From an uncultured Anaerolineales bacterium (GTDB lineage: Bacteria; Chloroflexota; Anaerolineae; UBA4142): a stretch of DNA of 53,818 bases. Positions 20,605-38,174 of the stretch are shown here, piece after piece. The stretch is taken from positions 1 to 53,818 of the forward strand of contig CAIKBD010000488.1 in NCBI GenBank assembly GCA_903825565.1. The letters run 5' to 3'. Every line of letters starts with the position of its first letter. Position 1 is the first letter of the stretch. The notes under the pieces were generated by a model that did not search any database, was not told the origin of the DNA, and worked only from the letters and a program-made list of their open reading frames with translations. Made by a program: the position numbers and the translations under genes.

Positions 20605-20621
20605 AAAACAGTGGAGATGGT

Positions 20622-21581
20622 ATGAGCCAGTTTGATTATCCAGTCATAAAAAAATCAGTGCCGACATTTTATTTCATCGGCGTGACGACCGGCAAATCCT
20701 CAATCATAAAAGTGTTTCCGTCGTGGATGCAAGTCCTGGGACGCACCGAGGTTGTCATCGAAGGGATAGATTGCAAAATCCATGATGATGCTCAGGTGTA
20801 TCGTCGAGCCGTTGCCCAGATCAAATATGATCCCAATTCGCTCGGCGCGTTGGTGACGACGCACAAGATTGATTTGCTCAACGCCGCGCGCGACATGTTT
20901 GAATATCTCGATCCTTACGCCACGATCACCGGCGAAATTTCGAGCATCTCGAAACTGGATGGTCGCCTCGAAGGTCATGCCAAAGACCCGCTGACATCGG
21001 GCGCAAGTTTGGACGCGATCGTTGAGCCAGGTTACTTTGGAAAAACCCAGGGGCAGGTATTGTGTTTCGGCGCGGGCGGGTCGGGGGTTGCCACCTTGTT
21101 GCACCTGATCAACAAAAAAGATCGCGCGGATCGTCCCGCCAAGTTCACGTTCGTCAATCGTTCCCAGGGGAGGTTGGAGCATGCGCGCGCGATGGTGAGC
21201 ACGTTAAAGACGGACATTCAGGTCGAATACATTTGCAGTTCCGATCCGGTGGCGAACGATTCGATCATGGAAAAATTTCCGCCGCACAGCATCGTCATCA
21301 ACGCAACGGGCATGGGCAAAGATACGCCCGGTTCACCGATCACGTGGAATGGAAAATTCCCCCTGGACAGCATCGCGTGGGAATTCAACTATCGCGGCGA
21401 ATTGGATTTTATGCACCAAGCGCTCGCGCAAGCGGCAAGCCGCAAGGTCAAGGTCGAGGACGGGTGGATTTATTTTGTGCATGGCTGGACGCAGGTCGTC
21501 GCGCAGGTGTTGCATTTTGATCTCACGCCGGAATTGTTCACCAAGTTGAACACGGCGGCATCATCGGTGCGAGGAAAATAA
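20622..21581 (+). CDS. Shikimate/quinate dehydrogenase-like protein (AroE family)
   Basis: The protein has 319 residues. The catalytic Lys is kept in LVTTHKIDL and the partner Asp in GHAKDPLTSG; the NAD(P) loop is CFGAGGSGVATL. The C-terminal block GWTQVVAQVLHFDLTPE resembles the AroE helix. It is longer and more divergent than housekeeping AroE, and it lies in a catabolic operon, so oxidation of a quinate- or inositol-like cyclic polyol is more likely than aromatic amino-acid synthesis (inference). Confidence 0.82.
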   Translation: MSQFDYPVIKKSVPTFYFIGVTTGKSSIIKVFPSWMQVLGRTEVVIEGIDCKIHDDAQVYRRAVAQIKYDPNSLGALVTTHKIDLLNAARDMFEYLDPYATITGEISSISKLDGRLEGHAKDPLTSGASLDAIVEPGYFGKTQGQVLCFGAGGSGVATLLHLINKKDRADRPAKFTFVNRSQGRLEHARAMVSTLKTDIQVEYICSSDPVANDSIMEKFPPHSIVINATGMGKDTPGSPITWNGKFPLDSIAWEFNYRGELDFMHQALAQAASRKVKVEDGWIYFVHGWTQVVAQVLHFDLTPELFTKLNTAASSVRGK

Positions 21582-21612: not shown

Positions 21613-23379
21613 ATGAACAAGTATTACCAATACAAGCACAAGGAACTTTGGGATGAGCACATCTGGGACAAACGCCTGAGCCCAATCATTCCGCTCGCGC
21701 GCTGGATTCAGGTCAAGAACCGGGAACTCAATCGCATCCCAGGTCGCCCCAAGGATGAACGTCGCACGACCGGCATCTTTGATCCCAAATCGAATGCGTT
21801 GTCGGACCCGGAAATTTTAGATGGCTGGGAACAGCGCGGTTTGCATTATCACTGCACAAGCATGAACTTGCCCTGGATCGCCATGACTCCCACCGGGCAC
21901 ATGGGCGTCAAAGGGTATCGTGACGAGATGGACACGATCCTGGTTTTGGTCAACGCCGAACTTGCGGATCCGAATTGGTGTATGTACACGCTGGAGAAAT
22001 ATCAAACGTATTTGGAACAAGCGGCACAGCACAAGTTCGCGCTGATCTTTTTGGCGTCCGATACAATTGATGCTTCCGATCACTATATCAGCATCGTCCA
22101 GGAAGCGGTCATCCTCTTTCACCTCAACTATAACCGAATGTTTTTGGATGTGAGCACGATTTATCAAGCGGGGACTGACCTGAAAAGCATCCCAGGATTC
22201 AAGTATCCCGGCGAAGCAAATCCCGACGCAGTCGTTCGCCGCATTGCCGGAATTTCTGCCCTGGATATTGCCGGCAAGTGGACGAATAAAAACAGTCTTT
22301 ACGATCATCTCATCATTCATCCCACCGGCAGTAGCAACTTGGCGTTCGACAAGGACGCGCTCATCCACAGTCAGGTCGGCAAAGATTTGGCGGAGGCGAT
22401 TTATTACGAGTACGCGTTCGACGATGCCGAAGATCCCAGGTTGCTTCAAGAATGGGAAGCGCGCGGGATTCGATGCGAGTTCCACGATAAAAATGGCGAG
22501 CAATGGATCACGCTTGCGCCGTTGAGCGCATACGATGCGCCCGCGAAAAAATTGCCGTGCATGTGCATCATGCACGAGGTCAATCGTTTCGATCCGCATC
22601 AAGCGATTACCGCGTTCAGTTATTATTACGAGTTCTTGAACATCGCCGCGCAAGGCGAGTGCATTTTATTATTCTTTGCGCTCGAATCGCTCAACGACAA
22701 CGATCTGCTCCACGACATCCTGGACGATGCGAGCCAGCTGTATCCGATTGATCGCCGTCGCGTGTACATCACTGGGCACAGCCACAACGGACGTTTTGCG
22801 GCAGAGTACATGCGCCGCCACCAAATGGATATTGCGGCAGTCGCAACCCTCGGCAATGAACCAGGTCAACTCTCGCCGGAAGTGACGGGTGGATTTTTCG
22901 TTGTGACGGATGAACAAATCGCCAAGCAAGCATCGGTGGATACGCCGCTCATCAACATCAGCGGGTTTAACGAACGCAACAGCATGTTCCCACTGCACAG
23001 CGACGCGCCGTTCGTGCGACCAGGACAATGGGTCGCGTTGAACACATTCGAAAAACGCGCGGTGAGTTGGCAACGCCGATTGAAATCGGCGCGATGCCCA
23101 GCCAAGACGATTGAGGAAATCGCGGCGACGAAAAACAGTAGCAATTCGGTGGAACGTCTGCTTGGTATTCCTGCCGATAAGACCGAAGTGCTTTTCAAGG
23201 ATGGCGGTGAGAATTACATCGCCGATATTAAAAATGGGGACGGCAAATTTCATTTGCGAATCGTCGCCCTGGGCAACATGCCGCACACCGTCACCTCGAC
23301 GATGATCGAATTGGCGTGGTCGTTTCTCCGGCGTTTCGCGCGCGATCAAAAAACCGGCGAGTGCATCGAACTGTATTGA
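21613..23379 (+). CDS. Large alpha/beta-hydrolase-like protein B (putative esterase)
   Basis: The protein has 588 residues and is homologous to hydrolase A (11033-12805) over the full length. Shared landmarks are MNKYYQYKHKELWDEHIWDKRLSPI near the start, YYEFLNIAAQGEC, NDNDLLHDILDDA and the elbow RVYITGHSHNGRFAAEY (probable nucleophile Ser390). GGAGG lies before the ATG. The two copies bracket the enzyme cassette, one behind the ABC importer and one before the TRAP importer. Substrate unknown. Confidence 0.75.
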   Translation: MNKYYQYKHKELWDEHIWDKRLSPIIPLARWIQVKNRELNRIPGRPKDERRTTGIFDPKSNALSDPEILDGWEQRGLHYHCTSMNLPWIAMTPTGHMGVKGYRDEMDTILVLVNAELADPNWCMYTLEKYQTYLEQAAQHKFALIFLASDTIDASDHYISIVQEAVILFHLNYNRMFLDVSTIYQAGTDLKSIPGFKYPGEANPDAVVRRIAGISALDIAGKWTNKNSLYDHLIIHPTGSSNLAFDKDALIHSQVGKDLAEAIYYEYAFDDAEDPRLLQEWEARGIRCEFHDKNGEQWITLAPLSAYDAPAKKLPCMCIMHEVNRFDPHQAITAFSYYYEFLNIAAQGECILLFFALESLNDNDLLHDILDDASQLYPIDRRRVYITGHSHNGRFAAEYMRRHQMDIAAVATLGNEPGQLSPEVTGGFFVVTDEQIAKQASVDTPLINISGFNERNSMFPLHSDAPFVRPGQWVALNTFEKRAVSWQRRLKSARCPAKTIEEIAATKNSSNSVERLLGIPADKTEVLFKDGGENYIADIKNGDGKFHLRIVALGNMPHTVTSTMIELAWSFLRRFARDQKTGECIELY

Positions 23380-23488
23380 ACGACGCATTGACCGTTCGTA
23401 GCCAGCACAAGGGAGGTGGTACGAGCAAATAAAAATTCTGGCTAGTCTAGTCATTCGAGTCAATTTCTCAATTCTCATGGAGGAGAAG

Positions 23489-24526
23489 ATGAAAAAGTTA
23501 CTTGTCGTTGCGATGCTTGCCATCGCGTTGCTTGTTGTCGCATGTGCGACGCCAACCGCCGAACCGACCAAAGCGCCGGCATCGTCCGCGGCAAGTCCGA
23601 CCAAAGCCGCGTCGCATCCCGAAGTCAAAGTGAACATCTACACGTCCTCGTTCGGTACGCTCAACTATACGTTCTCGTTCGCGCTCGGCGATATGATGAA
23701 CAAGAAACATCCCTGGTTGCGAATTGCCGTGCAGGAAACCACCCAGGCGGCGGACGCGATCAAGACGGTGGCGGCAGACCCCGCGCTGAGAAAAAACAGT
23801 ATGTTCCCACTCGCTTCGTCCATTCACTATGATGCCACGAATGGCACCGGCGCATTCGTCAACAATGCGATCAAGTACCAAGCCGTTGCGATGTACAACT
23901 CGAACGCAGTCGCGTTTGTCGCGCTCGATTCCAAAATTCAAACGGTCAAAGACCTGGATGGCAAACGGATCACGGTCGGTTCCGCCGGCGGCGCTGCGCC
24001 AACCTTCGAATCCATCATCGCCGCGTATGGCATCAAGCCAGCCAAGATTGACAAGATCAGTTGGGAACCCGGCAAAGATGCGTTGATTGACGGCAAGACC
24101 GATGCGTGCGCGCAGACCTTGGGTGATGTGGGTCTCAATCCATATCAACCCAATGCGACGATTTCGCAACTGCAAGCCACGAATGGTTTTCATCTCGTCG
24201 CGATGGACCCCGAACTGGTGAAAAAAGCCGCGACAACGGTTCTGCTCAGTCCCATTGACCTGCCTTCGGGGACGCTGGGACTCTCCAAGCCGACGACCGT
24301 GGCGTTGAACACCAACACGTTGGCAGTCCTGCCCGAATTCGATTCCGAAGCCGCGTATGAAATCGCCAAGTTCATCGTTGAGAACGCGGATGGATTCAAG
24401 GACTATGACAAGTCCCTGGGTTCGGTGAAAAAGAGTTCGGTGGCTTCGTTTGCGGTGCCGATTGTGACAGTCAATCCGGGCGCGGAAAAGTACTATAAAG
24501 AAGCCGGCATGAAGATCGGACAGTAA
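23489..24526 (+). CDS. TRAP transporter substrate-binding lipoprotein, TAXI family
   Basis: The protein has 345 residues. The lipoprotein signal is LLVVACAT (lipid Cys19), followed by a short Ala/Pro/Thr/Lys linker. The mature part fits the TAXI family: DLDGKRITVGSAGGAAPTFE, a QTLGDVGLNPY-type centre and AYEIAKFIVENAD near the end. These proteins deliver organic acids or related anions to TRAP permeases. Start ATG 23489 follows GGAGGAGAAG. The fused permease is the next gene. Confidence 0.9.
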   Translation: MKKLLVVAMLAIALLVVACATPTAEPTKAPASSAASPTKAASHPEVKVNIYTSSFGTLNYTFSFALGDMMNKKHPWLRIAVQETTQAADAIKTVAADPALRKNSMFPLASSIHYDATNGTGAFVNNAIKYQAVAMYNSNAVAFVALDSKIQTVKDLDGKRITVGSAGGAAPTFESIIAAYGIKPAKIDKISWEPGKDALIDGKTDACAQTLGDVGLNPYQPNATISQLQATNGFHLVAMDPELVKKAATTVLLSPIDLPSGTLGLSKPTTVALNTNTLAVLPEFDSEAAYEIAKFIVENADGFKDYDKSLGSVKKSSVASFAVPIVTVNPGAEKYYKEAGMKIGQ

Positions 24527-24680: not shown

Positions 24681-24726
24681 CCCGCTTGGTTTGCCCGAAC
24701 CAAGCGTTTGCCGCAAGCCAAGCGGG
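24681..24726 (+). promoter_or_regulatory. Alternative hairpins between TAXI and TRAP permease genes
   Basis: CGCTTGGTT (24683-24691) can pair with AACCAAGCG (24698-24706), or the same 5' arm CCCGCTTGG (24681-24689) can pair with CCAAGCGGG (24718-24726). The two structures exclude each other. A further hairpin occurs upstream in the same 238-base gap (GGACGCGG with CCGCGTCC, about 24575-24640). No gene is seen in 24527-24764. Confidence 0.55.
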
Positions 24727-24764
24727 ATCGCTCACGGTCAAGTTTCGCATTCGGGAGAAAAACA

Positions 24765-26702
24765 ATGGCATCACAGGGTTCCGATGAACTCATCGGCAAG
24801 TACATGGTGGACGGTCAGCAGTCGAATACCAAGCCCTTGGGCGTTTTGCAAATCGCCATCTATGTTTTTGCGATTGCAATGATTCTGTTTCAATTTTTTG
24901 GCGATAGCGTAATGTCCATGAGCGAATTGGCGTTCAAGGATATTCATTATGCTTTTGTGCTGACGATCTCGTTTCTCGTCCTGATGAAAAAACACCCCAA
25001 GCAAAATTGGCTGTGGGCGATTCTTCTCGTCGTCTCGCTGTTCTCGACCGGCTATGTGTACTTTTACGAGGAAGCGTTGATCCTGCGCGCGGGTCAGCCC
25101 ATCGGCTTGGATATTCCGGTCGGCATTGCGCTCCTCGTGGTCGCGCTCATTGCGACGTGGCGCACCTGGGGCATGGCAATCCCCCTGATGAGTCTCGCCT
25201 TTATCGGCTATACGTTTATCATCCAGTACTTGCCGCCGCCGTTTTACGGTCCCTCGCCGACGCTGGCGCGCATGGTCACGACACTCACGATTGGTCTCAC
25301 TGGGATGTGGGGCACAATGATGAGCACGTCGGCGAATACCATTTTCTATTTCATGGTGTTTGGTTCCGTGTTTGAAATGACGGGGACGGTGCGTTGGTTC
25401 GACGAGATCGGCAAAGTCATCGGGCGCTTTTCCAAAGCGGGCGCGGCGCAGACCTCGGTAGTGACGAGCGCGTTGTTCGGTCTCACCAGCGGCTCGGCGA
25501 TGGCGAATGTCGTGACTTCTGGCATCTTTACAATTCCGGCGATGAAAAAAGCCGGCTTTAAGCCCGAAGACGCCGCGGCGATTGAAGCCACGTCCTCGGT
25601 GGGCGGTCAGATCATGCCGCCGATCATGGGCACGACCGCGTTCATTATGGCGGCGGTGATTGCGACGCCGTATGCCGAGATCGCGTTGCGCGCCGCGATC
25701 CCGGCGTTGCTGTTCTTTCTCGCCTGCGGAGTTCAGGTGGAATTGATCGCGCGCAAAGAACGCACGACGGTCGCCGATGAACAGGTGAACGTGAAAGAGT
25801 TGATCTTGATGTCGCCCTTGTTTATCGTGCCGATGGTCCTCCTGACCTGGTTGCTGTTTGAAGGGCACAGTGTTGCTTACTCGACCGGTCCCGCCATCCT
25901 CAGCATGATCGTGATTAGCATGTTACGCAAAGAGACGCGCCCAACTTGGCGCGGCGCGCTCGAAGGTCTCTCCGATGGCGCGATCAAGGGCGCGGAGTTG
26001 GGAATCACTTGCGCGGCAATGGCGCCGATTGTCGTGCTCACGACCTATACCGGCTTGGGCATCAAGTTTCCCGGTATTGTGCAAATGTTCAGCGGCGGCA
26101 ACATGCTGATCGCGTTGATTCTGACTGCCATCGTCGCGCTTGTGGTGGGCTTGGGCGCGCCGACCTCGGTCACGTATTTGATCGTGGCGATCATCATCGC
26201 GCCCGGTCTGGTCAAGATGGGCGTGCCCTTGCTCGCGGCGCATATGTTTGCATTTTACTATGGCATCATCGGGGCGGTGTCGCCGCCCGTCGCGCCGGCG
26301 GTGCTCGTTGCCGCCCGCATGGGCGATGCGGACTATATGAAAGCCGGTTGGGCATCCATGAAATTTGCCGTCGTCGGTTTTATCGTGCCGTTTCTTTTCT
26401 GCTTCAACCCGGTTCTGCTCGGTTATTTCAAGGACCCTGTTTCGGATATTGTGGTTCTGGTGATGACGTGCGTCCTGGTTTTTATCCTGTCGGTCGCATT
26501 GGTCGGTTGGTATCTCACCCGGCTCAACGTAATCGAGACGCTCGTTGCCGGGTTGAGCAGTGCGCTCCTGGCATTCTACATCGGGACAAACAACCTTGTG
26601 CTTTTGGTTGCGGCGTTGGTTTCATTCGGACTCTTGACCCTCTGGCAAGTCAAAAAGAAAAGGGCGGAAAAAAATTTGCAAGCCGGGGCAAGCCCTGCTT
26701 GA
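24765..26702 (+). CDS. Fused TRAP transporter permease (DctQM type)
   Basis: The protein has 645 residues and is almost entirely hydrophobic. The N-terminal third corresponds to the small DctQ-like membrane subunit and the rest to the large DctM channel. DctM blocks include VTSALFGLTSGSAMANVVTSG, EATSSVGGQIMPPIMG, VVGLGAPTSVTYLIVA and GAVSPPVAPAVLVAA. Fusions of this kind pair with TAXI binding proteins and use a sodium or proton gradient. Start ATG 24765 is preceded by GGGAGAAAAAC. Confidence 0.94.
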   Translation: MASQGSDELIGKYMVDGQQSNTKPLGVLQIAIYVFAIAMILFQFFGDSVMSMSELAFKDIHYAFVLTISFLVLMKKHPKQNWLWAILLVVSLFSTGYVYFYEEALILRAGQPIGLDIPVGIALLVVALIATWRTWGMAIPLMSLAFIGYTFIIQYLPPPFYGPSPTLARMVTTLTIGLTGMWGTMMSTSANTIFYFMVFGSVFEMTGTVRWFDEIGKVIGRFSKAGAAQTSVVTSALFGLTSGSAMANVVTSGIFTIPAMKKAGFKPEDAAAIEATSSVGGQIMPPIMGTTAFIMAAVIATPYAEIALRAAIPALLFFLACGVQVELIARKERTTVADEQVNVKELILMSPLFIVPMVLLTWLLFEGHSVAYSTGPAILSMIVISMLRKETRPTWRGALEGLSDGAIKGAELGITCAAMAPIVVLTTYTGLGIKFPGIVQMFSGGNMLIALILTAIVALVVGLGAPTSVTYLIVAIIIAPGLVKMGVPLLAAHMFAFYYGIIGAVSPPVAPAVLVAARMGDADYMKAGWASMKFAVVGFIVPFLFCFNPVLLGYFKDPVSDIVVLVMTCVLVFILSVALVGWYLTRLNVIETLVAGLSSALLAFYIGTNNLVLLVAALVSFGLLTLWQVKKKRAEKNLQAGASPA

Positions 26703-26787: not shown

Positions 26788-28521
26788 ATGAACCCCGCAA
26801 CCCCGGTGAAACTTCAAGTATTCAACCCCACCAGTCGAGTGAACATTTCCGCGCCGAATGCGCCGCGTCTGGACACCTTGAATGGCAAGACCCTCTGTGA
26901 ATTGTGGGTCTCTGGCAATTGGGCCGGCGAGCGAACGTTTCCGGTTCTGCGCGCAATGTTGCGCGTGCGTTTTCCCGGGATCAACATTGTGCCATACACC
27001 GAGTTTCCGTACACCGAAAAAGGATTGTCCACGCGCGCCACGTATGAACCGTACTTTGAAAAAATGGGCGAGCTGTTGCGCGCCCAGGGATGCGATGCCG
27101 TTTTGATTGGCAATGGCGGTTGCGGGTGCATCATCCCGGTCAGCACCGTCGCGGCGCTCGTCGAAAAAGCCGGGTTTCCGACCGTCACGATTGTCTCCGA
27201 TGAATACGCGGAGGTGATCAAGGTTACGGCGCAAGGACAAGGGCTTGCCGCATTGCCAAGCGCGTCGTTCCCCAGCCAGGTGATGTGGCGTCAGGTTGAG
27301 GACGTGCGCCCCGCGTGCGAAAACGCGCTCGATGCGATCATCGCCGGCTTGACGACCTGGCGACCCGATGAATCAAATGCAACCGAGCCGAGCGAGTTTG
27401 TGTTTGAAGGTGCGGATTATCAGGATGCGGTTGACCAAATGGAAAGCGCATTTCTTGCGCGCTGGTGGAGCGATGGCTTGCCGCTGATCCCGCCAACCCG
27501 GGAGCGCGTCGCGTGGCTGTTGACCGGCACCGATTTGCCGCGCGAGCAAATCGTCACCCAGAAAATTTCGCCGCGCTATGGCGCGATCACGGTCGAGACT
27601 GTTGCGATCAACGCGGCGATGGCGGGCGCGCGCCCGGAATATCTGCCGGTGATTTTGGCGGCGATTGACGCGCTCGGCGCGACGAAAGCGGGCTTGGAAC
27701 TGAGTTATGTTTTTCAAGAGACCTTGTCGCCGGTCGCGCCCTGGTTTATCGTGAATGGGCCCATCGTGCAAGAACTGAACATCAATTCATCGTTCGGCGT
27801 CCTGGGTCCCGGTTGGAAAGCCAATGCGACGATTGGGCGCGCCATCGGGTTAGTGCTGAACAATGGCGGCGGTGGCAATTCGGGACCAGCGGGCACACGC
27901 CGGGCGCAATCTACGGCGGCGCGCTACACCTGTTGCTTTGCGGAGAACGCCGCAGAAAATCCCTGGAGTCCGTTCCAGGTCGAAAATGGTTTTGGCGCGG
28001 ATGTCAGCACGGTGACGATTATGGCGGGCAAAGGCACACACCTGGTTCACGTTGTAGATGGCACCGAAGAAATTTTGCGAGCGGCGGTGCGTGCGTTAAA
28101 AGGATTCACGTATCACGACATCGGCGTACCCTGGGATCAGTGGCTCATCCTGTCGCCCGACCATGCCCAGCGGCTTGCGCGCGGCGGCTGGACGAAAGCG
28201 AGTATTCGCGCGTACATTCACGAACGCGCGCGGATACCTTTGGTGGAAGCAAAAGCGGACGGTATCTTTTTGCGCTTTAGCGAAAGTTGGCTGAAACAAG
28301 TGGCGACGACCCAGGATCACAACCTGCCAATCCCGATCACGGAAAAACCGGAGGATTTGAATATCGTGGTGGCGGGTGGCACCGGCAACGGCAATTCGAC
28401 GCTGGTTGCCGGAATGCGGAGAAAAGTCATCGCAGAGGTAGACCAGTACAAACCGCGAAACTGGGTGCAACTCCTGGAACGAGCCAGGCAAGATTTAACG
28501 TCAAGAGTGGATATATGCTGA
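26788..28521 (+). CDS. UGSC-family protein, cysteine form, with large C-terminal domain
   Basis: The protein has 577 residues. The N-terminal domain (about 1-200) aligns with the three TGA-containing paralogues downstream, for example NGKTLCELW, RFPGINIVPYTEFP and CDAVLIGNGG. At the place where those have TGA, this gene has TGC (27121-27123, Cys112) in the motif GGCGCIIP, so the redox pair is Cys112-Gly-Cys114 rather than U-G-S-C. The C-terminal domain starts with WSDGLPLIPPT (Trp227) and includes AGARPEYLPVI and FIVNGPIVQELN; I do not recognise it. The gene overlaps the following lactonase gene by seven bases. Confidence 0.8.
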   Translation: MNPATPVKLQVFNPTSRVNISAPNAPRLDTLNGKTLCELWVSGNWAGERTFPVLRAMLRVRFPGINIVPYTEFPYTEKGLSTRATYEPYFEKMGELLRAQGCDAVLIGNGGCGCIIPVSTVAALVEKAGFPTVTIVSDEYAEVIKVTAQGQGLAALPSASFPSQVMWRQVEDVRPACENALDAIIAGLTTWRPDESNATEPSEFVFEGADYQDAVDQMESAFLARWWSDGLPLIPPTRERVAWLLTGTDLPREQIVTQKISPRYGAITVETVAINAAMAGARPEYLPVILAAIDALGATKAGLELSYVFQETLSPVAPWFIVNGPIVQELNINSSFGVLGPGWKANATIGRAIGLVLNNGGGGNSGPAGTRRAQSTAARYTCCFAENAAENPWSPFQVENGFGADVSTVTIMAGKGTHLVHVVDGTEEILRAAVRALKGFTYHDIGVPWDQWLILSPDHAQRLARGGWTKASIRAYIHERARIPLVEAKADGIFLRFSESWLKQVATTQDHNLPIPITEKPEDLNIVVAGGTGNGNSTLVAGMRRKVIAEVDQYKPRNWVQLLERARQDLTSRVDIC

Positions 28522-29624
28522 AACAATCCTATATTTATTTTGCGATTGCCGGCGAAGATAAAATCCTGGGTGGTACGCTCGATTCTGAAACTGGGGCGAT
28601 TGAGATTCGCCATGAAATTGCGGTGCCCTGGGGACCCGAGGCGTTAGCCATTGATCCCGGCAAGCGATTCCTTTTTGTAGGATGCCATCCGCGCAATGCG
28701 TCCAAGCATGGTTCTTGCGAGAGCAAGATGTACAGCTATTGGATTGATTGGCAGACCGGCGGCTTGACGCCCATCAACAGTGTTGCGCTCCAAGACGCGC
28801 CGACTTTTGTGGCGGTGGATCAGACATCGCGCTTTTTGCTTTCGGCGTACTATCGCGCTGGCAAAGCGGCGGTGCATTGCATCGGCGCGGATGGCGCGAT
28901 TGGCGAAGCGACGCAATGGTTCGAATCCGGCGGCGGCGCGCATTGTATCCAGGTTGATACATCCAATCGTTTCGCTTTTCTTCCGCACATCGCCACCAGC
29001 AAAGTCAATATCAATTATTGGCCCCCCAATGGAAATTCGAATCACATTTTACCCGGCGCGTCGAATACGATTCTGCAATTCAAATTCGATGACGCGACTG
29101 GGACGCTGATTCCCAATGCGCCATTCAAATTGCCGGGCGAACGCGGCGGCGGACCGCGCCATTATTGTTTTCATCCTAGGTTGAATGTGGTGTACTTTGC
29201 CAACGAACAGGGATGCGCCGTGACCGCGTACGCATTGAACCCAACCGAAGGCACGCTGACGCCGTTTCAACATATCTCGACGTTGCCACCGGAAGGCTAC
29301 GACAACTATGCCAGTTGTTCCAGTTTGCGTGTGACACATTCCGGCAAATTCTTGTATGTGCTGAATCGCGGTCTGGATAGTGTGGCGTGTTTCAGTGTTG
29401 ACCCGACGACGGGTCGGTTGAAATCGAATGGACTCGTGCCGACCGAAGCGCAACCGCACGCGCTCGAACTCGACCTGGATGACCAGTTTCTTTTTGTCGC
29501 CGGACATACTTCAGGGTGCTTGACCACCTATCGCGTACAAGAAGATGGCAAGTTGCAACCAATCGCCTCGCGTGCGATTGGCAAACAACCCAAGTGGATT
29601 TTGGTGACGCGGCAAGAAACCTAA
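28515..29624 (+). CDS. Beta-propeller lactonase (6-phosphogluconolactonase/YbhE type)
   Basis: The protein has 369 residues made of repeated beta-propeller blades, e.g. ALAIDPGKRFLFVGCH, FVAVDQTSRFLLSAYY, LRVTHSGKFLYVLNRG and ALELDLDDQFLFVAGH. This is the seven-bladed Pgl-type lactonase pattern; family members open sugar lactones or cyclise muconates. There is no signal peptide, so it is cytoplasmic. ATG 28515 overlaps the end of the UGSC gene, showing tight coupling. The substrate is probably a lactone in the same pathway (inference). Confidence 0.88.
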   Translation: MLKQSYIYFAIAGEDKILGGTLDSETGAIEIRHEIAVPWGPEALAIDPGKRFLFVGCHPRNASKHGSCESKMYSYWIDWQTGGLTPINSVALQDAPTFVAVDQTSRFLLSAYYRAGKAAVHCIGADGAIGEATQWFESGGGAHCIQVDTSNRFAFLPHIATSKVNINYWPPNGNSNHILPGASNTILQFKFDDATGTLIPNAPFKLPGERGGGPRHYCFHPRLNVVYFANEQGCAVTAYALNPTEGTLTPFQHISTLPPEGYDNYASCSSLRVTHSGKFLYVLNRGLDSVACFSVDPTTGRLKSNGLVPTEAQPHALELDLDDQFLFVAGHTSGCLTTYRVQEDGKLQPIASRAIGKQPKWILVTRQET

Positions 29625-29628
29625 GCCC

Positions 29629-30450
29629 ATGATGATTGTGGATACCCATGCTCATGCGTCGCCTTTTTGGTTCGAACCCATCGAGGTGTTGCTGTTTCAG
29701 ATGAACCGCAACGGCGTAGCCAAGACGATGCTCGTCGCGATCAATGGGCAGACGGATGAAAAATATAATCGGTATCTGATCGAGTGCGCGCAAAAATTCC
29801 CCGGTCGTTTTGCGCCCATCATCCTGGTAGACCCAGAACGCGCGGATGCGCCGACGATGCTGAAGCACTGGGCGAGCCAAGGCGCCGAAGGGGTACGATT
29901 AAAGGTGACGGCGCGTTCGCCGGGCAGTGACCCGCTGAGTATTTGGAGAGCGTGCGCCGACCTGGGTCTCGTCGTCTCATGCCAAGTGCGGCGTCTCGAA
30001 GAGTTTGCGAGCGATGAATTGCGCATCCTGGTCGCGGCATTGCCGAATTTAATTTTTATCATCGAACATCTGGGCAAGCCCAACCTGGACGAAGCCGCGC
30101 CGTACCCCAACTATAAACAGGCGTTGAACCTAGCCCGGTTTCCGAATGTGTACATCAAGGTGGGCGGACTGGGAGAAATTTGCCGGCGACCGTATCCGTT
30201 TCGTGAACCGTTTTATCGGGGAGAGGTGCCGCCGTTTATCAAAATGGCTTACGATGCTTTCGGTGCGGCGCGCATGATGTGGGGAAGCAATTATCCACCC
30301 AGCAGTCAGGTTGAGGGCTATCGCAACACGTTGGGTTATCTCGATGAATATCTCGATTCGTTTTGTAGCGCGCAAGATCAAGCCTGGATGTTTGGCAAGA
30401 CGGCGCTGACCCTCAGTTCAAATCAACGCGGAGTGATGAATCATGAGTGA
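29629..30450 (+). CDS. Amidohydrolase-2 family metal-dependent hydrolase
   Basis: The protein has 273 residues. The N-terminal metal motif VDTHAHASPFW, the middle EGVRLKVTARS, the strand FIIEHLGKP and the late WGSNYPP (where other members have an Asp-containing motif) place it in the amidohydrolase-2 (decarboxylase/lactonase) group. The usual late metal-ligand Asp seems replaced by Asn or Ser (GSNYPP versus GSDWP), an oddity that could alter metal binding. It ends inside the start of the next UGSC gene (ATGAGTGA overlap). Confidence 0.85.
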   Translation: MMIVDTHAHASPFWFEPIEVLLFQMNRNGVAKTMLVAINGQTDEKYNRYLIECAQKFPGRFAPIILVDPERADAPTMLKHWASQGAEGVRLKVTARSPGSDPLSIWRACADLGLVVSCQVRRLEEFASDELRILVAALPNLIFIIEHLGKPNLDEAAPYPNYKQALNLARFPNVYIKVGGLGEICRRPYPFREPFYRGEVPPFIKMAYDAFGAARMMWGSNYPPSSQVEGYRNTLGYLDEYLDSFCSAQDQAWMFGKTALTLSSNQRGVMNHE

Positions 30451-32182
30451 ACCAACCTATCAAGTCGTTTGGCCCCTGGGCAAATCCACCTATCAAATTG
30501 TGGCGATGCAATCGCGGATCAAGGATTTGGCGAGCATCACGGTTGGCGAATTATCGCACGGCGGTTTTCGCGATCAAGAGATTCGCCCCCTCGTCGAAGA
30601 AACATTGGCGAAACAATTTCCGGGGATTAAATTTATTGATCACACCGTTTTCGGCAACATTCACGGTCGCAACGAAGCCGAGGTGGTTGCCGCGTTGCCG
30701 GAAAATTTGCGTCAACACAAAGTGGATGCGGTCATCACCGGCATCGGTTCCTGAGGAAGTTGCACACCCGCCGTGGTGCGGGCAAGCGTGGTCGTCGAGA
30801 AAGCCGGCATTCCTACGGCATCTATTGTGGCGACTGGGTTTCTCGGTCAAGCCAAGGCGACCGCCAAATCACTCGGCATGGCGAACCTGGGATTGGCGGA
30901 ATATCCCGGCATCATCATGAATCACAGCCAAGAAGAGCTTCGCAAGAATGTCGAGACGGTGCTCGTGCCGAATATCATCAAGGTGCTCACAAAACCGACG
31001 GAGAACGCGGTCAAGGTCAACGAGCTAAGAGCGACCGACGTTATTTTCGAGGGGACGCTCGATGAGGTCAACGAATTCTTTTTGCAAAAACAATGGTCGG
31101 ATGGTTTGCCGATCATTCCGCCGACCGTCGAGCGTGTGCAAGCGTTCCTTAAATTTACGGATCATCAACCGGACGAGGTGCTGGGCGTCCTCGCGCCGGA
31201 AAATCGCCAAGCCACCATTTGGAACGTGGCGGTGAACGGCGTGATGGCGGGCTGTCGCCCCGAGTACATGCCGGTGCTCATCGCCGTTGTCGAGGCGATT
31301 GCCGAACCGGATTTTCATCTGCGCGATGCCGGCGCAACGCCGGGCTGGGAGCCGCTCATCATTCTCAACGGACCCATCGCCAAGGAATTGGATTTCAACT
31401 ACGAGTCGGGAATTTTGCGCGCGGGACGCCAGGCGAACACGAGCATTGGGCGATTCATTCGCTTGTACATGCGAAACGTCGCCGGCTTGCGCATCGCGCC
31501 CGGTAGCATGGACAAGGGGAGTATCGGTCTCGGCTTGAATGTGGTCGTGGCAGAGAATGAAGATGCGGTGAGCGAACTGGGTTGGGAATCGTTCAGTAGC
31601 CAACGCGGATTTGATCGCAGTGATAATGTCGTGACGGTGCAAAGCGCACTCAGCACGACGATCCCGATTTACAGCGCCGGCGATACCGCGCTCGATCACA
31701 TGGATACGCTCGTCGAAGTGTTTGGCGGCACGTGCGCGTTCTGGTCGCATACGGCAGTTCGCAAGGGCAAATATTTTCCCCTGCTCATCATCAGCCCGGG
31801 TGTCGCCAAAGTCATCGCGCGTGATGGGTGGACGAAAAGAGAGATTCAGCAACATCTGTTTGAGCACACCAAGGTTTCGGTGCGCGCGTTGCAAAAACAC
31901 GCCTGGCAAATCGGTTTTTCGGAATACGATCTTTACGCGCTCGTCGCCAAAGGTGTGGTGTCGCCCGCGTACGCCGAATCGGATGATCCGGATCGCTTGG
32001 TGCCGGCGTTCATCAAATCGGAATGGATCGGCATCGTTATCGGCGGCGACCCCGGTCGCAATCAGAGCAAGGGCTTTGTGCAGAATCACGATCAAGCGCC
32101 GCCCATCAGCAAAAAAATTATTTTGCCGGCGAATTGGCAGAACCTGGTTGGCAAAGTGAAAAAATCGCATGAAGCCCATTGA
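30443..32182 (+). CDS. UGSC-family selenoprotein 1 (Sec at TGA 30752-30754)
   Basis: Read through the in-frame TGA at 30752-30754, the gene encodes 579 residues. The motif is GIGS-U104-G-S-C107. N-terminal domain marks are LASITVGELSHGGF, QFPGIKFIDHTVFGN, VDAVITG, and after the Sec VVVEKAGIPTASIV. The C-terminal domain begins WSDGLPIIPPT (Trp218) and continues with AGCRPEYMPVLIAV, LILNGPIAKEL-type and GRFIRLYMRNVAG. Both halves are open for 103 and 475 codons in the same frame, and the TGA aligns with Cys112 of the paralogue at 26788. A GC-rich hairpin follows the TGA. Premature termination would remove nearly the whole protein. Confidence 0.85.
30755..30785 (+). promoter_or_regulatory. Candidate bacterial SECIS hairpin of selenoprotein 1
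   Basis: CCCGC (30767-30771) and GCGGG (30778-30782) enclose the 6-base loop CGTGGT, whose second base is G. TTG (30760-30762) and CAA (30783-30785) can extend the stem across an internal loop. The apical loop lies 18 bases after the TGA, in the range of known bacterial SECIS elements. Confidence 0.6.
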
Positions 32183-33386
32183 GGTCGCGCCGTCCGCGAA
32201 CGTAAACGCGGACGCGGTTGACGAGCGATTGCTGTCGGCGAATTTCGTCTTTACCGTCCTGACTAATTTTTTCTATGCGCTCGGTGGGCAAATGACGAAT
32301 GCTATCGTGCCAATGTACGTGTTGAGCATTGGCGGCACGAATGCCGAAGCCGGCTTGATCGGCGGCATCGCTTCGATCACGGCGCTGGTTGTGCGCTCGC
32401 TGATCGGCTGGGTGACCGATGTGTGGCGGCGACGCCCGGTGATCTTGTTGGGCACGATGCTCTATGCGGTCGCCAATTTTATTTATTCCATCAGCGGCGC
32501 AATCGGGATGATCATTTTTGGGCGCGTCATCCAAGGATTGGGCATCAGTTGTTATAGCACGGCGTCCACGTCGTACGTCGCCGACATCGCGCCACCCAAA
32601 CGCCGCGCCGAAGCCATCGGTCTCTTTGCCGCCGCCAATAGTCTGGGGCTCATCCTGGGTCCCGCGATTGGTTTTTATTTGATCGCACTCCTGGGTTATC
32701 ATGGACTGTTTTACATTGTGACGGGAATTTCGGCTGTCGCCGGCATCGTCTCGCTGTTTGCGAAAGAAAAAATAAAGCCGCGCGAGACCAAACGTCCGGC
32801 TTGGTCTTGGCGTTCGGGCATCGTGGCGGTGGACGCGCTACCGATTGCTTGGACAGCGCTGTGTCTGGGCATGGCGTACGGCTCGTTGACCACGTTTATC
32901 GCGATTTTTGCGACCGCGCGCGGCATCGCGAACCCCGGTTTTTATTTCACGGTTCAAGCGATCATGCTTTTGTTGTCCCGCACTTTTTCGGGTCGCTTTG
33001 CGGATAAATATGGTCGCGCGTTCGTGATTGCGCCCGGCTTGATGGCGATGGCATTGGCGTTGGGTATGTTGCCGCTGATGTATGACTTGAGCGGTTTCAT
33101 GATTTCTGCCGCGCTCATGGGCTTGGGCTTTGGCACTGCGCAACCGGCAACGATGGCGCTGTTGGTGGACCAGGTGCGTGCGGATCAGCGCGGACTCGCG
33201 GTTGCCACGTACTCGATGGGGTACGACGGCGGTATGTTCCTGGGCGCGTCCTTGTTCGGCGTGGTCACCCAGGTCTGGGGCTTTAATGTCATGTGGACAG
33301 CGGTAGCGGTTTGCGTATTGCTGGGTCTGTTGGGCATTTTGAGAACCTTGCGCATGAATGTTTCGATTTCAAGTGAACAAAAATAA
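32169..33386 (+). CDS. Major facilitator superfamily transporter
   Basis: The protein has 405 residues with about 12 hydrophobic segments. The loop between helices 2 and 3 carries the MFS-like GWVTDVWRRRPVIL, and the second half repeats it as GRFADKYGRAFVI. An early block GGTNAEAGLIGGI and PPKRRAEAIGLFAAANSLG fit drug- or metabolite-type MFS carriers. Its start overlaps the end of selenoprotein 1 by 14 bases, so the two are translated together. It may import the substrate or export a product of the UGSC system. Confidence 0.92.
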   Translation: MKPIEVAPSANVNADAVDERLLSANFVFTVLTNFFYALGGQMTNAIVPMYVLSIGGTNAEAGLIGGIASITALVVRSLIGWVTDVWRRRPVILLGTMLYAVANFIYSISGAIGMIIFGRVIQGLGISCYSTASTSYVADIAPPKRRAEAIGLFAAANSLGLILGPAIGFYLIALLGYHGLFYIVTGISAVAGIVSLFAKEKIKPRETKRPAWSWRSGIVAVDALPIAWTALCLGMAYGSLTTFIAIFATARGIANPGFYFTVQAIMLLLSRTFSGRFADKYGRAFVIAPGLMAMALALGMLPLMYDLSGFMISAALMGLGFGTAQPATMALLVDQVRADQRGLAVATYSMGYDGGMFLGASLFGVVTQVWGFNVMWTAVAVCVLLGLLGILRTLRMNVSISSEQK

Positions 33387-33393
33387 ATTGACC

Positions 33394-33416
33394 CGGATTG
33401 TGTTGAATTCAATCCG
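33394..33416 (+). terminator. Hairpin after the MFS gene
   Basis: CGGATTG (33394-33400) pairs with CAATCCG (33410-33416) around a 9-base loop. There is no T run after it, so termination is uncertain. It opens a 200-base gap (33387-33586) in which no gene is seen and in which a separate promoter for selenoproteins 2 and 3 might lie. Confidence 0.35.
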
Positions 33417-33586
33417 TGAACACGATTGAAGCGACAAATTGCACGCGCAACATAGCGTAACGTGTAGCAACGCGAAGCAAATTTTGTGCGGCATTCGGCA
33501 TCCAGCGTCCGTTATCGCAAGTGGCAAAATAATTCTGCTCACCTACTTGGTGATTGGAGATACAAGTCAGGAGCTGTGAACATATC

Positions 33587-35299
33587 ATGATCTCATTCCA
33601 AGTGCTCAATCCCTGCGGCGCGGTTGGCTCGACCAAAGGGGCTTATGCGCCGCGTCTGCCCGATCTCGCCGGCAAAACGATTGGGATGCTGTCCAATCAA
33701 TTGGGCGAAGCCGACCGAATTTTTCCGGCGATGCGCGAGTTATTGCGAAAACGATTTCCAACTGCCAACATTATTCCGCACACCGAATTTCCACAGGGCG
33801 GCGACCGGATTGATTCGGCAGAGATTGTGCAAATCGTCCAAAGCAAAAAATGTGATGCGGTCATCGTCGGCAACGCGCAGTGAGGGTCGTGCACCACCAA
33901 AGCCGGTCGGGCTGCGGCAAGACTAGAAAAAGTCGGTATCCCTTCGTTCATCATCACGCGCAAGGGTTTTGCTAAAATCGTGGACAGTGCATTTGCCGGC
34001 ATGGGTTTCCCTGCCGATGCGCCGTCCGTCTTGGAATTCCCGCTCGAAATGTTTGTGCCGGGGAGCGATTTGTCGCCGCTCGAAAAAAACCTGGATCAGA
34101 TTATTTTTGGACTGACGCAATGGAAATCCAAAATCGCCGAACGTACAAGTTACGCGCCGCCGCCCATCACGATTGAGGGCAAGGATTATCCCGCTGCGCT
34201 CGACAACCTGAATTTATTTTTCTTGCGTAACTTGTGGAGCGATGGACTGCCCATTGTGCCGGCGACGCGTGAGCGGGTGGATTGGCTTTTGACCGGCGCT
34301 AATTTGCCGCGCGAAAAAATTCTCGGCACGATGCTTCCGCGCGGCGGCATCGTCACGCTTGAACAGATCGCGGTGGCGCTGGCGATGGCAGGCGGGCGTC
34401 CCGAATATATGCCGGTGCTCATCGCTACCGTCGCGGCATTCCTCGACCCCGCCATCAAACACGAACATTTGCAAACCACGACCGGCAATAATTTTCCGGT
34501 CGTCATCGTCAACGGCGCGATTGCCAAACAAATTCGGCTCAATGCCGGCACAGGGTGTTGCGGACCCGACCCGAATCATCCGGCGGGCGCGAGCATCGGA
34601 CGTGCGTTGCGCTTTTTGCAAATGAACGTTGGCGGCGCAATCCCAGGTCAGGGGACGATGGCAGAGTATGGCGCGAACCGGTTTACGAACATGGTCATCG
34701 CCGAAAATGAAGACGCGCTACCGGCAGGGTGGCAATCGCTCAGCGAGGAGCGCGGCTTTAGCCGAGCAAGTAACACGGTCACGCTGCATTTCGTTGCGTC
34801 CATCATTGACATGATTCCGTCCACGACGACGACGGAGCAGGCGGCGATCTATACCTTGAATCGGTGGGCGGCGTACATCGGTGGTCCGTTCAACATGTAT
34901 TTCGGTTTCGAGTCGCGCTGGGAGCATGGCTCGCCGGGCGTGTTGTTGATGGGTGCGTTGACCGCGCAAGGATTTGCCAACACCGGTTTTTCCAAAGACC
35001 AGATTCGAGAATGCTTGTGGGAAAAATCGAAACTAGCGCCGGAGAAAGTCAAAGAGTACGGCTACGAAAAACATGTGGCGGAGTTGCGCCTCGATCCCAC
35101 CATGCCCTTGCCGGTATCCAAGTCGCCCAAGTCGTTGCTCATTGCGATTGCCGGCGGCGCGCCATCGGGTCATGCGTACTTTATGCCGAACCAGGGCTAC
35201 ACATCGGTTACCCAAGAAATAAAATTGCCGTCCAGTGCGACCTGGGACGATCTTTTGAAACAAGCCGCGCAAGACCTGGGTCCGTTGCCGGCGAGTTAA
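33587..35299 (+). CDS. UGSC-family selenoprotein 2 (Sec at TGA 33881-33883)
   Basis: Read through TGA 33881-33883, it encodes 570 residues with the motif GNAQ-U99-G-S-C102. Before the TGA: VLNPCGAVG, LAGKTIGML and RKRFPTANIIPHTEFP, very close to the Cys paralogue. After it: AARLEKVGIPSFIITRKGF with no stop in frame. The C-terminal domain begins WSDGLPIVPAT (Trp217), followed by AGGRPEYMPVLIATV and VNGAIAKQIRLN. It has an additional Cys-Cys pair in AGTGCCGPD. ATG 33587 is chosen from homology; AGGAG lies a little far upstream (13 bases). It is followed 17 bases later by selenoprotein 3. Confidence 0.85.
33901..33913 (+). promoter_or_regulatory. Candidate SECIS hairpin of selenoprotein 2
   Basis: AGCC (33901-33904) can pair with GGCT (33910-33913) around loop GGTCG, which begins with G. 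An alternative stem is GCCG (33902-33905) with CGGC (33915-33918). The loop starts 22 bases after the TGA. The stem is shorter than in the other two genes, so this is the weakest of the three. Confidence 0.45.
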
Positions 35300-35316
35300 A
35301 ATCGGAGGTTTGAAGA

Positions 35317-36999
35317 ATGCCAGCACATAGTTCCTATCAAGTTCTGTCGCCGATCACCGAATCGCATACGCAAAAAACACGCTTGGCTCCGTCCATCCCC
35401 GACCTCGCCGGGAAAACCATCGGCGCGATGCGCCACACCTTTCGCGCCGACGAAACATTTCCGATGATCGAGCAGTTGTTGCGCGAAAAATATTCCAACC
35501 TCAAGTTCATCTCGAATACGGACATGCCGGACATGCGCCCGACGAACGCGGCGGAAGAAGCCGAGCTAACGCGCGTGCTCAAGGATAAAGGATGCGACGT
35601 GCTCCTTGCCGGCAACGGCGCTTGAGGAACGTGCGCGCCCGCGGCTTCACGGGCAGTCATCACAGCGGAGAAAGCCGGCATTCCTGGCGTGGTCATCGCC
35701 GTCTCCGATTTTCTCACGAGTTGCCGGGCAACCGGCAAAGCGGCGGGCTTGCCCAACCTTCGCGTGGCGGTTTATCCCGGCGCGATTGCTGTGCATCCAC
35801 TTGAGGATGTGCAAAAAAATATCCAGGAAATTGTCTTTCCGCAAATCATCAAATTGTTGACCGAACCAGTCGCGCAAGGCGCGGTGTCAAGCAAGGTTGC
35901 CGCGCAAGAACCGGCGATTGTTTTTCAAGGTAGCTTTGAGCAAGTGAACGAGTACTATACTCAAAAGCAATGGTCGGACGGTTTGCCCATCGTTCCGCCC
36001 ACCGCCGACAAGGTGCAAACGTTCCTTAAATTTACAGAGCATTCGCCCAACGCGGTGTTGGGTGTTTTGCATCCGGCGTTGCGCCCAGCGACCGTTCACT
36101 CGATTGCGGTCAATGGCGTGATGGCGGGCTGTCGTCCCGAGTACATGCCGATCTTGGTGGCGATTGTGCAAGCGATTGCCGACCCGCGTTTTCATCTCGA
36201 AGATGCGGGCAGTTCGGCGGGCTGGGCGCCGCTAATTATTCTCAACGGTCCGGTCATCGCGCGACTGGGTTTCAATGCCGGCACCGGCGTGATGCGCGCG
36301 GGCAATCAGGCGAACACGAGCGTCGGTCGTTTCCTGCGCTTGTATCTACGCAACGTCGCCGGGTTTATTCCCGGCGTGAGCGACATGGCAACGTTCGGGC
36401 GTCCCAATTTTCCGGTGCTCGCCGAGAATGAATCCGCGAGTCCCTGGGAGCCGTTGAGTGTGACGCGCGGATTCGCGCCCGGCGATAGTGTGGTCACGGT
36501 CACTTCGGTGGGGTGCATGAGTTATCAGTTGACGGTGGTCGCGCAAACGGGACACGATATTCTCTACAATCTCACCGCCAAAGTGAAACAGACTTTGCTC
36601 GCGGGCGATGGCTCGGTGATTACCAAAGGTCCCGAACAAGCGCCGCAGTTGGTGTTGAGTCCGGTGGTGGCGCGCTCGTTGGCAGAGGCGGGGTACAGCA
36701 AGCGCGATATTCAACAGCACATCTTTGAGCACGCCAAAGTGCCCGCGTGCGAGTTCGATGCGTGGTTGGCGTTTCAAGGTGTGGTCAACGCGCGCGAGTG
36801 CGTGAAAAAAGGTTTGCTCCCGGCGCAGTTCGCCGAGTCGGATGATCCGCAAAGAATGTTGCCGCTGTATCACGCGCCACACGAATTGCAAATCATCGTC
36901 GCCGGGACGCCAGAGCGCAATCGGTTTTTCGTGACCCAGCAAGTTGGACGGCAAGGACTCGCCACTTCAAAAAAAATCAGCATGGGTTTGCTGGGGTGA
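35317..36999 (+). CDS. UGSC-family selenoprotein 3 (Sec at TGA 35623-35625, motif UGTC)
   Basis: Read through TGA 35623-35625, it encodes 560 residues with the motif GNGA-U103-G-T-C106. N-terminal landmarks are LAGKTIGAMRHTFRADETFP, LREKYSNLKFISNTDMP and CDVLLAGNG; after the Sec come ITAEKAGIPGVVIAVSDF. The C-terminal domain begins WSDGLPIVPPT (Trp219), then AGCRPEYMPILVAIV, LILNGPVIARLGFN-type and GRFLRLYLRNVAG. It is closest to selenoprotein 1 in the C-terminal half. GGAGG lies before the ATG. A strong 5-bp hairpin follows the TGA. Confidence 0.85.
35637..35654 (+). promoter_or_regulatory. Candidate SECIS hairpin of selenoprotein 3
   Basis: GCCCG (35637-35641) pairs perfectly with CGGGC (35650-35654) around loop CGGCTTCA, with G in its second position. 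The loop starts 17 bases after the TGA, nearly the same distance as in selenoprotein 1. Confidence 0.6.
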
Positions 37000-37108: not shown

Positions 37109-37130
37109 CGTGAGACAAATTTGTCTCACG
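37109..37130. promoter_or_regulatory. Perfect 22-bp palindrome, probable operator
   Basis: CGTGAGACAAAT/TTGTCTCACG is fully self-complementary over 22 bases, centred between 37119 and 37120, 22 bases upstream of the alcohol dehydrogenase start. There is no loop and no T run, so a dimeric repressor or activator site is more likely than a terminator. The cognate regulator is unknown. Confidence 0.65.
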
Positions 37131-37151
37131 TCTTCAAAAGAGGTAAGCATA

Positions 37152-38174
37152 ATGAAACAAGCAGTGATGCCTGCTCCAGGCAAAATCGAATTTAGAAATG
37201 TAGGACAGCCAACCTGCCAGGATGACGAGGTGCTCGTTCAAATCAAACGCATCGGCGTATGTGGTTCGGATATTCACGTCTATCACGGACAGCATCCGTA
37301 CACAACGTATCCGGTGGTGCAAGGGCACGAAGTGTCCGGCACGCTTGCTCAGATCGGGAACGCGGTCAAGAGCTTTACACTGGGCGAGCAAGTTGTGTTC
37401 ATGCCCCAGATCACCTGCGGCGAATGTTATCCGTGTCGCCAAGGCATGTATCACATCTGCGACAACCTCAAGGTCATGGGCTTTCAAACTGGCGGAGCGG
37501 CGCAAGATTATTTTCCGGTCAAGGCGAACATGGTTCTAAAAATGCCGGACGCGATCTCGCTCGATCATGCCGCGATGATCGAACCGATCTCGGTCGCCGT
37601 TCACGCCTTGTCGCGTGTGGGCAGTGTGCAGGGGCGCAAGGTGTTGGTGTTGGGCGCGGGAACGATTGGCAACCTGGTCGCGCAAACGGCGCGTGCGCTG
37701 GGCGCGGCGCGCGTGATGATTACCGATGTGAGCGAATACAAGTTGGACAAGGCGCGTCGTTGTGGACTCGACTGCGCGATCAATTCGCAACAAGAAAATC
37801 TCACGGACGCCATCATCCAACACTTGGGTCCCGACAAAGCCGATGTGATCCTGGAATGTGTCGGCGTCGAGGAGACGATTACGCAAGCGATTGCGAACGC
37901 GCGCAAGGGCACGCCGATTGTCGTCGTGGGAGTGTTTGGCAAAAAGCCGCCGGTGGATTTGGCGATGGTGCAAAATAATGAATTGAGTTTGATTGGCACG
38001 CTCATGTATCAACGCGCCGATTATGAATGTGCGATCGACCTGGTTGCCCGGCACGCGATTCAACTCGACGAATTAATCACGCATCGCTTTCCATTCGAGG
38101 CATACCTGGAGGCGTATCAGGTGATTGAAGCATCGCAAGGCAAATACCTCAAGGTCATGATCGAACTGGACTGA
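37152..38174 (+). CDS. Zinc-dependent alcohol dehydrogenase (sorbitol/threonine dehydrogenase-like)
   Basis: The protein has 340 residues of the medium-chain dehydrogenase family. The catalytic zinc Cys37 is in GVCGSDIHVYHG, followed by QGHEVSGTL. The structural zinc site CGECYPCRQGMYHIC has all four Cys. The NAD(P) loop is VLGAGTIGNLVAQ. Substrates of this group are polyols, threonine or other secondary alcohols. Start ATG 37152 has AAGAGGTAAG upstream. It follows the selenoprotein genes after 152 bases that contain a probable operator, so it may be separately regulated. Confidence 0.92.
   Translation: MKQAVMPAPGKIEFRNVGQPTCQDDEVLVQIKRIGVCGSDIHVYHGQHPYTTYPVVQGHEVSGTLAQIGNAVKSFTLGEQVVFMPQITCGECYPCRQGMYHICDNLKVMGFQTGGAAQDYFPVKANMVLKMPDAISLDHAAMIEPISVAVHALSRVGSVQGRKVLVLGAGTIGNLVAQTARALGAARVMITDVSEYKLDKARRCGLDCAINSQQENLTDAIIQHLGPDKADVILECVGVEETITQAIANARKGTPIVVVGVFGKKPPVDLAMVQNNELSLIGTLMYQRADYECAIDLVARHAIQLDELITHRFPFEAYLEAYQVIEASQGKYLKVMIELD

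Follow-up and report, generated by a model that had tools for sequence, protein, structure and literature searches.

Three long genes in the 53,818-nucleotide stretch of DNA analysed here (contig CAIKBD010000488.1 of an uncultured Anaerolineales bacterium, hereafter the window) each carry an in-frame TGA codon that is almost certainly decoded as selenocysteine (Sec) by the host's own machinery, yielding three full-length UGSC-family selenoproteins which are accompanied by one cysteine (Cys) paralogue. Gene structure, homology, exchange of Sec and Cys, decoding machinery and a SECIS signal at the level of the family were all observed directly, and the explanation taken overall is considered very probable, its reductase mechanism being graded separately as having about an even chance of being right.

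The three genes lie on the forward strand at positions 30443-32182, 33587-35299 and 35317-36999, and their frames are open for 579, 570 and 560 codons apart from one internal stop each, a TGA at 30752-30754, 33881-33883 and 35623-35625 respectively. In all three the TGA is followed by Gly-Ser-Cys or Gly-Thr-Cys, giving the motif UGSC in selenoproteins 1 and 2 and UGTC in selenoprotein 3; for the middle gene, the ATG at 33587 is a more likely start than the TTG at 33554. Alignment of the window proteins places the three TGA codons in a single column, for which the chance with three random stops is about 3e-6, in agreement with a sequence-only reading of this DNA that had described three genes split at one point of one domain. 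That reading had also held both halves of each gene to be open in one frame, and each half is indeed recognised by an HMM built from 49 homologues, all from other genomes, with E values of 3.7e-32, 5.2e-19 and 1.3e-19 for the upstream halves and of 7e-208, 8e-89 and 2e-169 for the downstream halves of genes 1, 2 and 3. Conventional ORF calling returns six truncated ORFs (103+469, 109+439 and 102+436 aa), just as had been expected; gene callers truncate UGSC selenoproteins, and a widespread two-domain Sec enzyme is thus easily missed.

The fourth homologue (26788-28521, forward strand, 577 aa) is the same two-domain protein without an internal stop, and its TGC at 27121-27123 aligns to the TGA column as had been proposed. 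Its motif is C-G-C, a CxC which is one residue shorter than UxxC, so that the earlier description of Sec and Cys aligned at UxxC motifs stands for the Cys in the column and fails for the spacing. The genes do form one cluster, but calling it a tandem array of three goes too far: an MFS transporter gene (32169-33386, forward strand; PF07690, E 1.3e-52) separates selenoprotein genes 1 and 2, only the last two selenoprotein genes are truly adjacent, and the four proteins are distant paralogues with 28-43% identity. A recent tandem duplication was likewise rejected on account of this low identity and of the separate places of the proteins in the tree, where, judging from their sequences, the three selenoproteins belong to distant subfamilies; they are thus three different selenoproteins of one UGSC family, as had been inferred before.

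Relatives were sought in one genome per species, whereby more than 570 were found and 80 loci kept, and the residue at the aligned site was counted in 103 rows made up of the kept loci together with own-genome and family genes covering the site. The codon was TGA in 88 rows and Cys in 13, the remaining two being one Ser and one Gly, so that this check, which had been suggested with the original claim, returned Sec or Cys in 101 of 103 cases. In the tree, the Cys forms of Curtobacterium, Novosphingobium and Nocardioides are nested in Sec clades, that of Curtobacterium as sister to selenoprotein 1, which points to several exchanges between Sec and Cys. Of 37 genomes with Sec forms, 30 had SelA above cut-off, as against 1 of 11 with Cys forms, that of Novosphingobium (Fisher p 2.7e-5); the seven Sec-form genomes that lack a full selA are apparently draft assemblies. 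In a sample of 400 genomes of the phylum, about one in ten has UGSC genes, and a genome may have as many as eight. Three UGSC copies share a contig of a Lachnospiraceae MAG (L089, L091), one with Sec, one with Cys and one with neither of them at the site, and selA was not found in that assembly.

The host genome (6.37 Mb in 530 contigs, 93% complete, 4.55% contamination) was searched for sel genes, another of the checks suggested earlier, and it holds the whole set that defines a host of bacterial selenoproteins, namely SelA, SelB, SelD and tRNA-Sec. The selA gene is on contig C7, selD followed by selB on contig C39, and tRNA-Sec genes are found on contigs C347 and C435. The selD gene has an in-frame TGA of its own, reading CAG-Sec-ASKM, with a strong hairpin after it (p 0.0005 against synonymous codons), and the ORFs beside selD and selB encode a putative YedE-like transporter and a SufS-like desulfurase, both named by sequence resemblance. 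Given 530 contigs and 4.55% contamination, an origin of the scattered sel genes in a different organism is possible in principle; their tetranucleotide composition agrees with that of the window (r 0.92-0.97, compared with 0.96-0.98 for pieces of the window).

Some further features of these contigs were noted. The two tRNA-Sec genes of the assembly (L026 1034-1130 and L030 3033-3126) are clearly different from each other, and several tRNA-Sec genes per genome are known but unusual (PMC5330540). In addition to the full SelB on C39, contig C188 has another SelB-like gene (L029, about 5720-6830), which is about 390 codons long and stops short of the C-terminal SECIS-binding winged-helix domains. 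On C39 (L031 1-795, forward strand), a protein with an in-frame TGA (FHDT-U-NSCGLL) and coding-like sequence on both sides had no Pfam or NCBIfam match, and a paralogue of it at L026 2-895 (minus strand) is cut by the contig end before the TGA point; this protein may possibly represent a new selenoprotein family next to the sel genes.

The SECIS signal is clearest when the family is considered as a whole. A hairpin whose loop lies some 17-26 nt beyond the UGA reaches a mean stem score of about 18.0-18.1 in the 88 Sec genes, whereas the Cys homologues lack it (mean stem score 9.7, n=12 genes). In a permutation null, obtained by swapping codons between sequences that share an amino acid at a given alignment column, the stem score was 15.9 +/- 0.25 and none of 200 permutations reached the observed value, although the permutations ignore relatedness and the z-score hence overstates independence. 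The signal peaks only at the canonical distance and is lost when the scanned interval is slid, while the hairpin sequence differs by subfamily (CCCGC/GCGGG, GUCGUGG/CCACGAC and CCGGCCGC/GCGGCCGG). Within the window, SECIS-like hairpins on the forward strand were found at 30767-30782 (CCCGC[CGUGGU]GCGGG, loop 18 nt after the UGA) and at 35637-35654 (GCCCG[CGGCUUCA]CGGGC), and a short, weak candidate at 33901-33913 (AGCC[GGUCG]GGCU). Taken singly, the hairpins after 30752, 33881 and 35623 do not stand out from synonymous-codon controls (p 0.16, 0.61 and 0.36), and the SECIS evidence is accordingly supportive for 30752 and 35623 and weakest after 33881. Single-gene SECIS energies compared with dinucleotide shuffles carried no information, and an Rfam search of the window gave no match.

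Decoding as Sec was weighed against other origins of the in-frame TGA codons. Pseudogenes, or split genes with genuine TGA stops and downstream halves started at an internal GTG, would agree with the six ORFs of standard calling and with the GTG start candidates present in the downstream halves, but such an origin is very improbable, as none of the three genes contains another stop or a frameshift, the TGA occupies the same codon and column in all three, both halves keep strong matches to outside families, the codon is TGA in dozens of unrelated genomes and the Cys forms are unsplit. Reassignment of TGA in this bacterium, to Trp for instance, or nonspecific readthrough is extremely improbable: it has nothing in its favour besides the in-frame TGA itself, while window genes end in TGA, including the natural ends of selenoproteins 1 and 3, homologues carry Cys and not Trp at the site, and the genome holds complete Sec machinery. 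Sequencing error, which the sequence-only reading had named as a possible refutation, is ruled out as the source of the TGA codons since the same codon is TGA across dozens of independent genomes. The decoding of the three codons as Sec, on the other hand, draws strong support from the Sec machinery, the residues of the homologues and the co-occurrence with SelA.

Regarding family membership, the UGSC domain (residues 8-183 of selenoprotein 1) corresponds to Pfam PF24696, for which selenoproteins 1, 2 and 3 and the Cys paralogue score 98.2, 87.2, 84.8 and 54.4 bits (E 7.6e-28, 1.9e-24, 1e-23 and 2.2e-14), all above the gathering cut-off of 25. In all four the UGSC motif begins with Sec or Cys, the Cys copy having CxC. 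Their scores for the NCBIfam equivalog NF041046 are 34-66 bits, below the curated cut-off of 125; a UGSC (seleno)protein family thus exists in the databases, as had been stated, and the window genes are further members of this known, functionally uncharacterised family. They share with it and with the UGSC-containing protein of PMC2398784 the domain and the Sec or Cys in U-G-[ST]-C; they differ in lying outside the NF041046 equivalog and in that three divergent selenoproteins and a CxC paralogue stand in one cluster. UGSC selenoproteins are a major family of the 2008 Global Ocean Sampling survey (PMC2398784), which reported a fusion of UGSC to an unknown domain; this partner may or may not be the C-terminal domain seen here. 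What is new is that three divergent selenoproteins and a CxC paralogue are found at one locus, and that the evidence from Sec/Cys, SelA and SECIS has been put into numbers.

The C-terminal domain (residues about 195-579 of selenoprotein 1, about 385 aa), which is present in the same two-domain build in selenoproteins 2 and 3, had no Pfam or NCBIfam match, its stand-alone copies had no Pfam match either, and a PDB sequence search together with a search of PDB and viral structures gave nothing solid. In other genomes, stand-alone UGSC genes and stand-alone C-terminal-domain genes neighbour each other, an arrangement that speaks for joint action of the two halves. The AlphaFold2 model of selenoprotein 1 is of high confidence (pLDDT 94.9, pTM 0.94); the full model had no convincing match in the PDB and no good one among viral structures, and thioredoxins were absent from its top PDB hits. 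When the C-terminal domain is compared alone with the PDB, class I fumarate hydratases take all of the first 24 places (best E 3.5e-4), with poor superpositions (TM about 0.2, rmsd about 18 A), and this modelled resemblance may serve as a lead only.

A relationship of another kind was seen at the active site, where the UGSC segment aligned to selenoprotein B of glycine reductase (GrdB, TIGR01918) with an hhalign E of 7.9e-7 over 45 columns, Sec on Sec. The related PrdB model (TIGR04483) was matched weakly by 15 of 56 family members; the PrdB score obtained for the window was 21.1 bits against a cut-off of 300, and GrdB had no match in this genome. The UGSC proteins fall short of these cut-offs and are not members of the glycine/D-proline reductase selenoprotein B family; judging from the aligned segment, their active-site region is nevertheless a distant relative of the selenoprotein B of glycine, betaine, sarcosine and D-proline reductases, a tie which is proposed in the present analysis and on which literature searches brought up general surveys only. 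Common to both would be the Sec in a UxxC loop within about 45 columns of related sequence, whereas the UGSC proteins have neither the third Cys of the GrdB motif UGTCTRC nor the remainder of GrdB, their C-terminal domain being another one.

The gene context points to the metabolism of imported compounds. Upstream of the cluster on the forward strand are a TAXI-type TRAP transporter solute-binding protein (23477-24526; TIGR02122 above cut-off) and a TRAP transporter fused permease (24708-26702; TIGR02123 above cut-off); within it are a 7-bladed beta-propeller lactonase (28359-29624; PF10282, E 6.8e-54) and an amidohydrolase family 2 or lactonase-like hydrolase overlapping the start of selenoprotein 1 (29629-30450; PF04909, E 8.5e-33), and after it comes a zinc-type alcohol dehydrogenase (37110-38174; PF08240 and PF00107). 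Elsewhere in the same genome, the genes around a UGSC gene on contig C20 include those for a Pyr_redox_2 flavoprotein, an oligopeptide-type ABC transporter, a carboxyltransferase and a MaoC-like protein, and those around another on contig C357 encode E1 dehydrogenase subunits and an Fe-S/CCG protein. The nearest same-strand neighbours in other genomes (n=101) include, as raw counts, 17 TctC receptors, 8 family-5 solute-binding proteins (SBP_bac_5) and 7 Pyr_redox_2 flavoproteins. These neighbourhoods look like catabolic gene clusters in which one step is reductive, and a thioredoxin-reductase-like gene was not found among the window genes scanned. Long ORFs at 21613-23379, 20538-21581 and 11033-12805 of the window had no Pfam match at E 1e-5.

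We infer that the UGSC proteins would be Sec-dependent reductases of imported small organic molecules, glycine-reductase-like at the Sec loop. The reaction is argued from the 45-column GrdB match and the gene context, no PDB structure convincingly matching the full model, and it is the GrdB-related active-site region which leads to the proposal of a Sec-selenolate mechanism on an electrophilic substrate. The neighbouring transporters would bring in the substrates, which the products of the lactonase, amidohydrolase and dehydrogenase genes would process. The N-terminal alpha/beta UGSC domain would carry the catalytic UxxC loop, and the Sec selenolate may attack or reduce the substrate held between both domains, then become linked as a selenenyl-sulfide to the Cys three positions further along, and be restored by a donor of the thioredoxin or FAD-reductase type. 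This joint scheme of Sec attack or reduction, selenenyl-sulfide and regeneration, in which reaction, electron donor and substrate are the deduced elements, could be right or wrong with similar probability; the GrdB link together with the transporter and redox neighbours offers a first testable idea of UGSC family function.

Two other functions were weighed against this proposal. True selenoproteins with a peroxiredoxin/thioredoxin-like antioxidant role or a metal/metalloid-binding role, rather than one in substrate catabolism, are conceivable but doubtful: the UxxC motif, the thioredoxin-like fold assumed in the 2008 survey (PMC2398784) and the metal binding supposed for other selenoprotein families (PMC13188914) speak for such a role, while the sole sequence relatives found are GrdB/PrdB-type reductases, the high-confidence model has no thioredoxins among its top PDB hits, the neighbours are solute receptors and catabolic enzymes, and several divergent paralogues per genome fit a diversity of substrates. 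It is unlikely that the UGSC domain acts as in glycine reductase while a fused hydro-lyase-like or carrier C-terminal domain performs the main chemistry; the fumarate hydratase matches and the stand-alone C-terminal-domain genes beside UGSC genes would suit this division of labour, but the TM and rmsd values speak against a real common fold and a sequence match is lacking.

Reductases based on Sec, as preferred here, may have diversified further in this organism. A seventh UGSC homologue on contig C435 (L026 1190-3136, minus strand) has a signal peptide and four in-frame TGA codons, two of them adjoining as TGA-TGA at the active site (UUAC) and two spaced as TGA-ACC-TGA close to the C-terminus (U-T-U), and family sequence resumes in frame after each pair. 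The first pair is followed by the hairpin TTGCGATGG[GTA]CCATCGCAG (p about 0.05; z -4.9 against dinucleotide shuffles) and the second by GGCTCG[GTT]CGAGCC (p 0.08-0.10); about 60 nt separate the gene from the start of a tRNA-Sec gene downstream of it. The protein is on a long branch of the tree, it is represented by this one contig, and no second double-Sec homologue was seen in 400 genomes of the phylum and 396 of the class. That it is an exported family member with four Sec and two SECIS-like hairpins, forming with the window selenoproteins a Sec-based catabolic reductase family diversified in one organism, is a proposition for which the balance stands even. If true, four Sec residues in one protein would go beyond the range of 2-3 stated for prokaryotic selenoprotein families in a 2026 review (PMC13188914).
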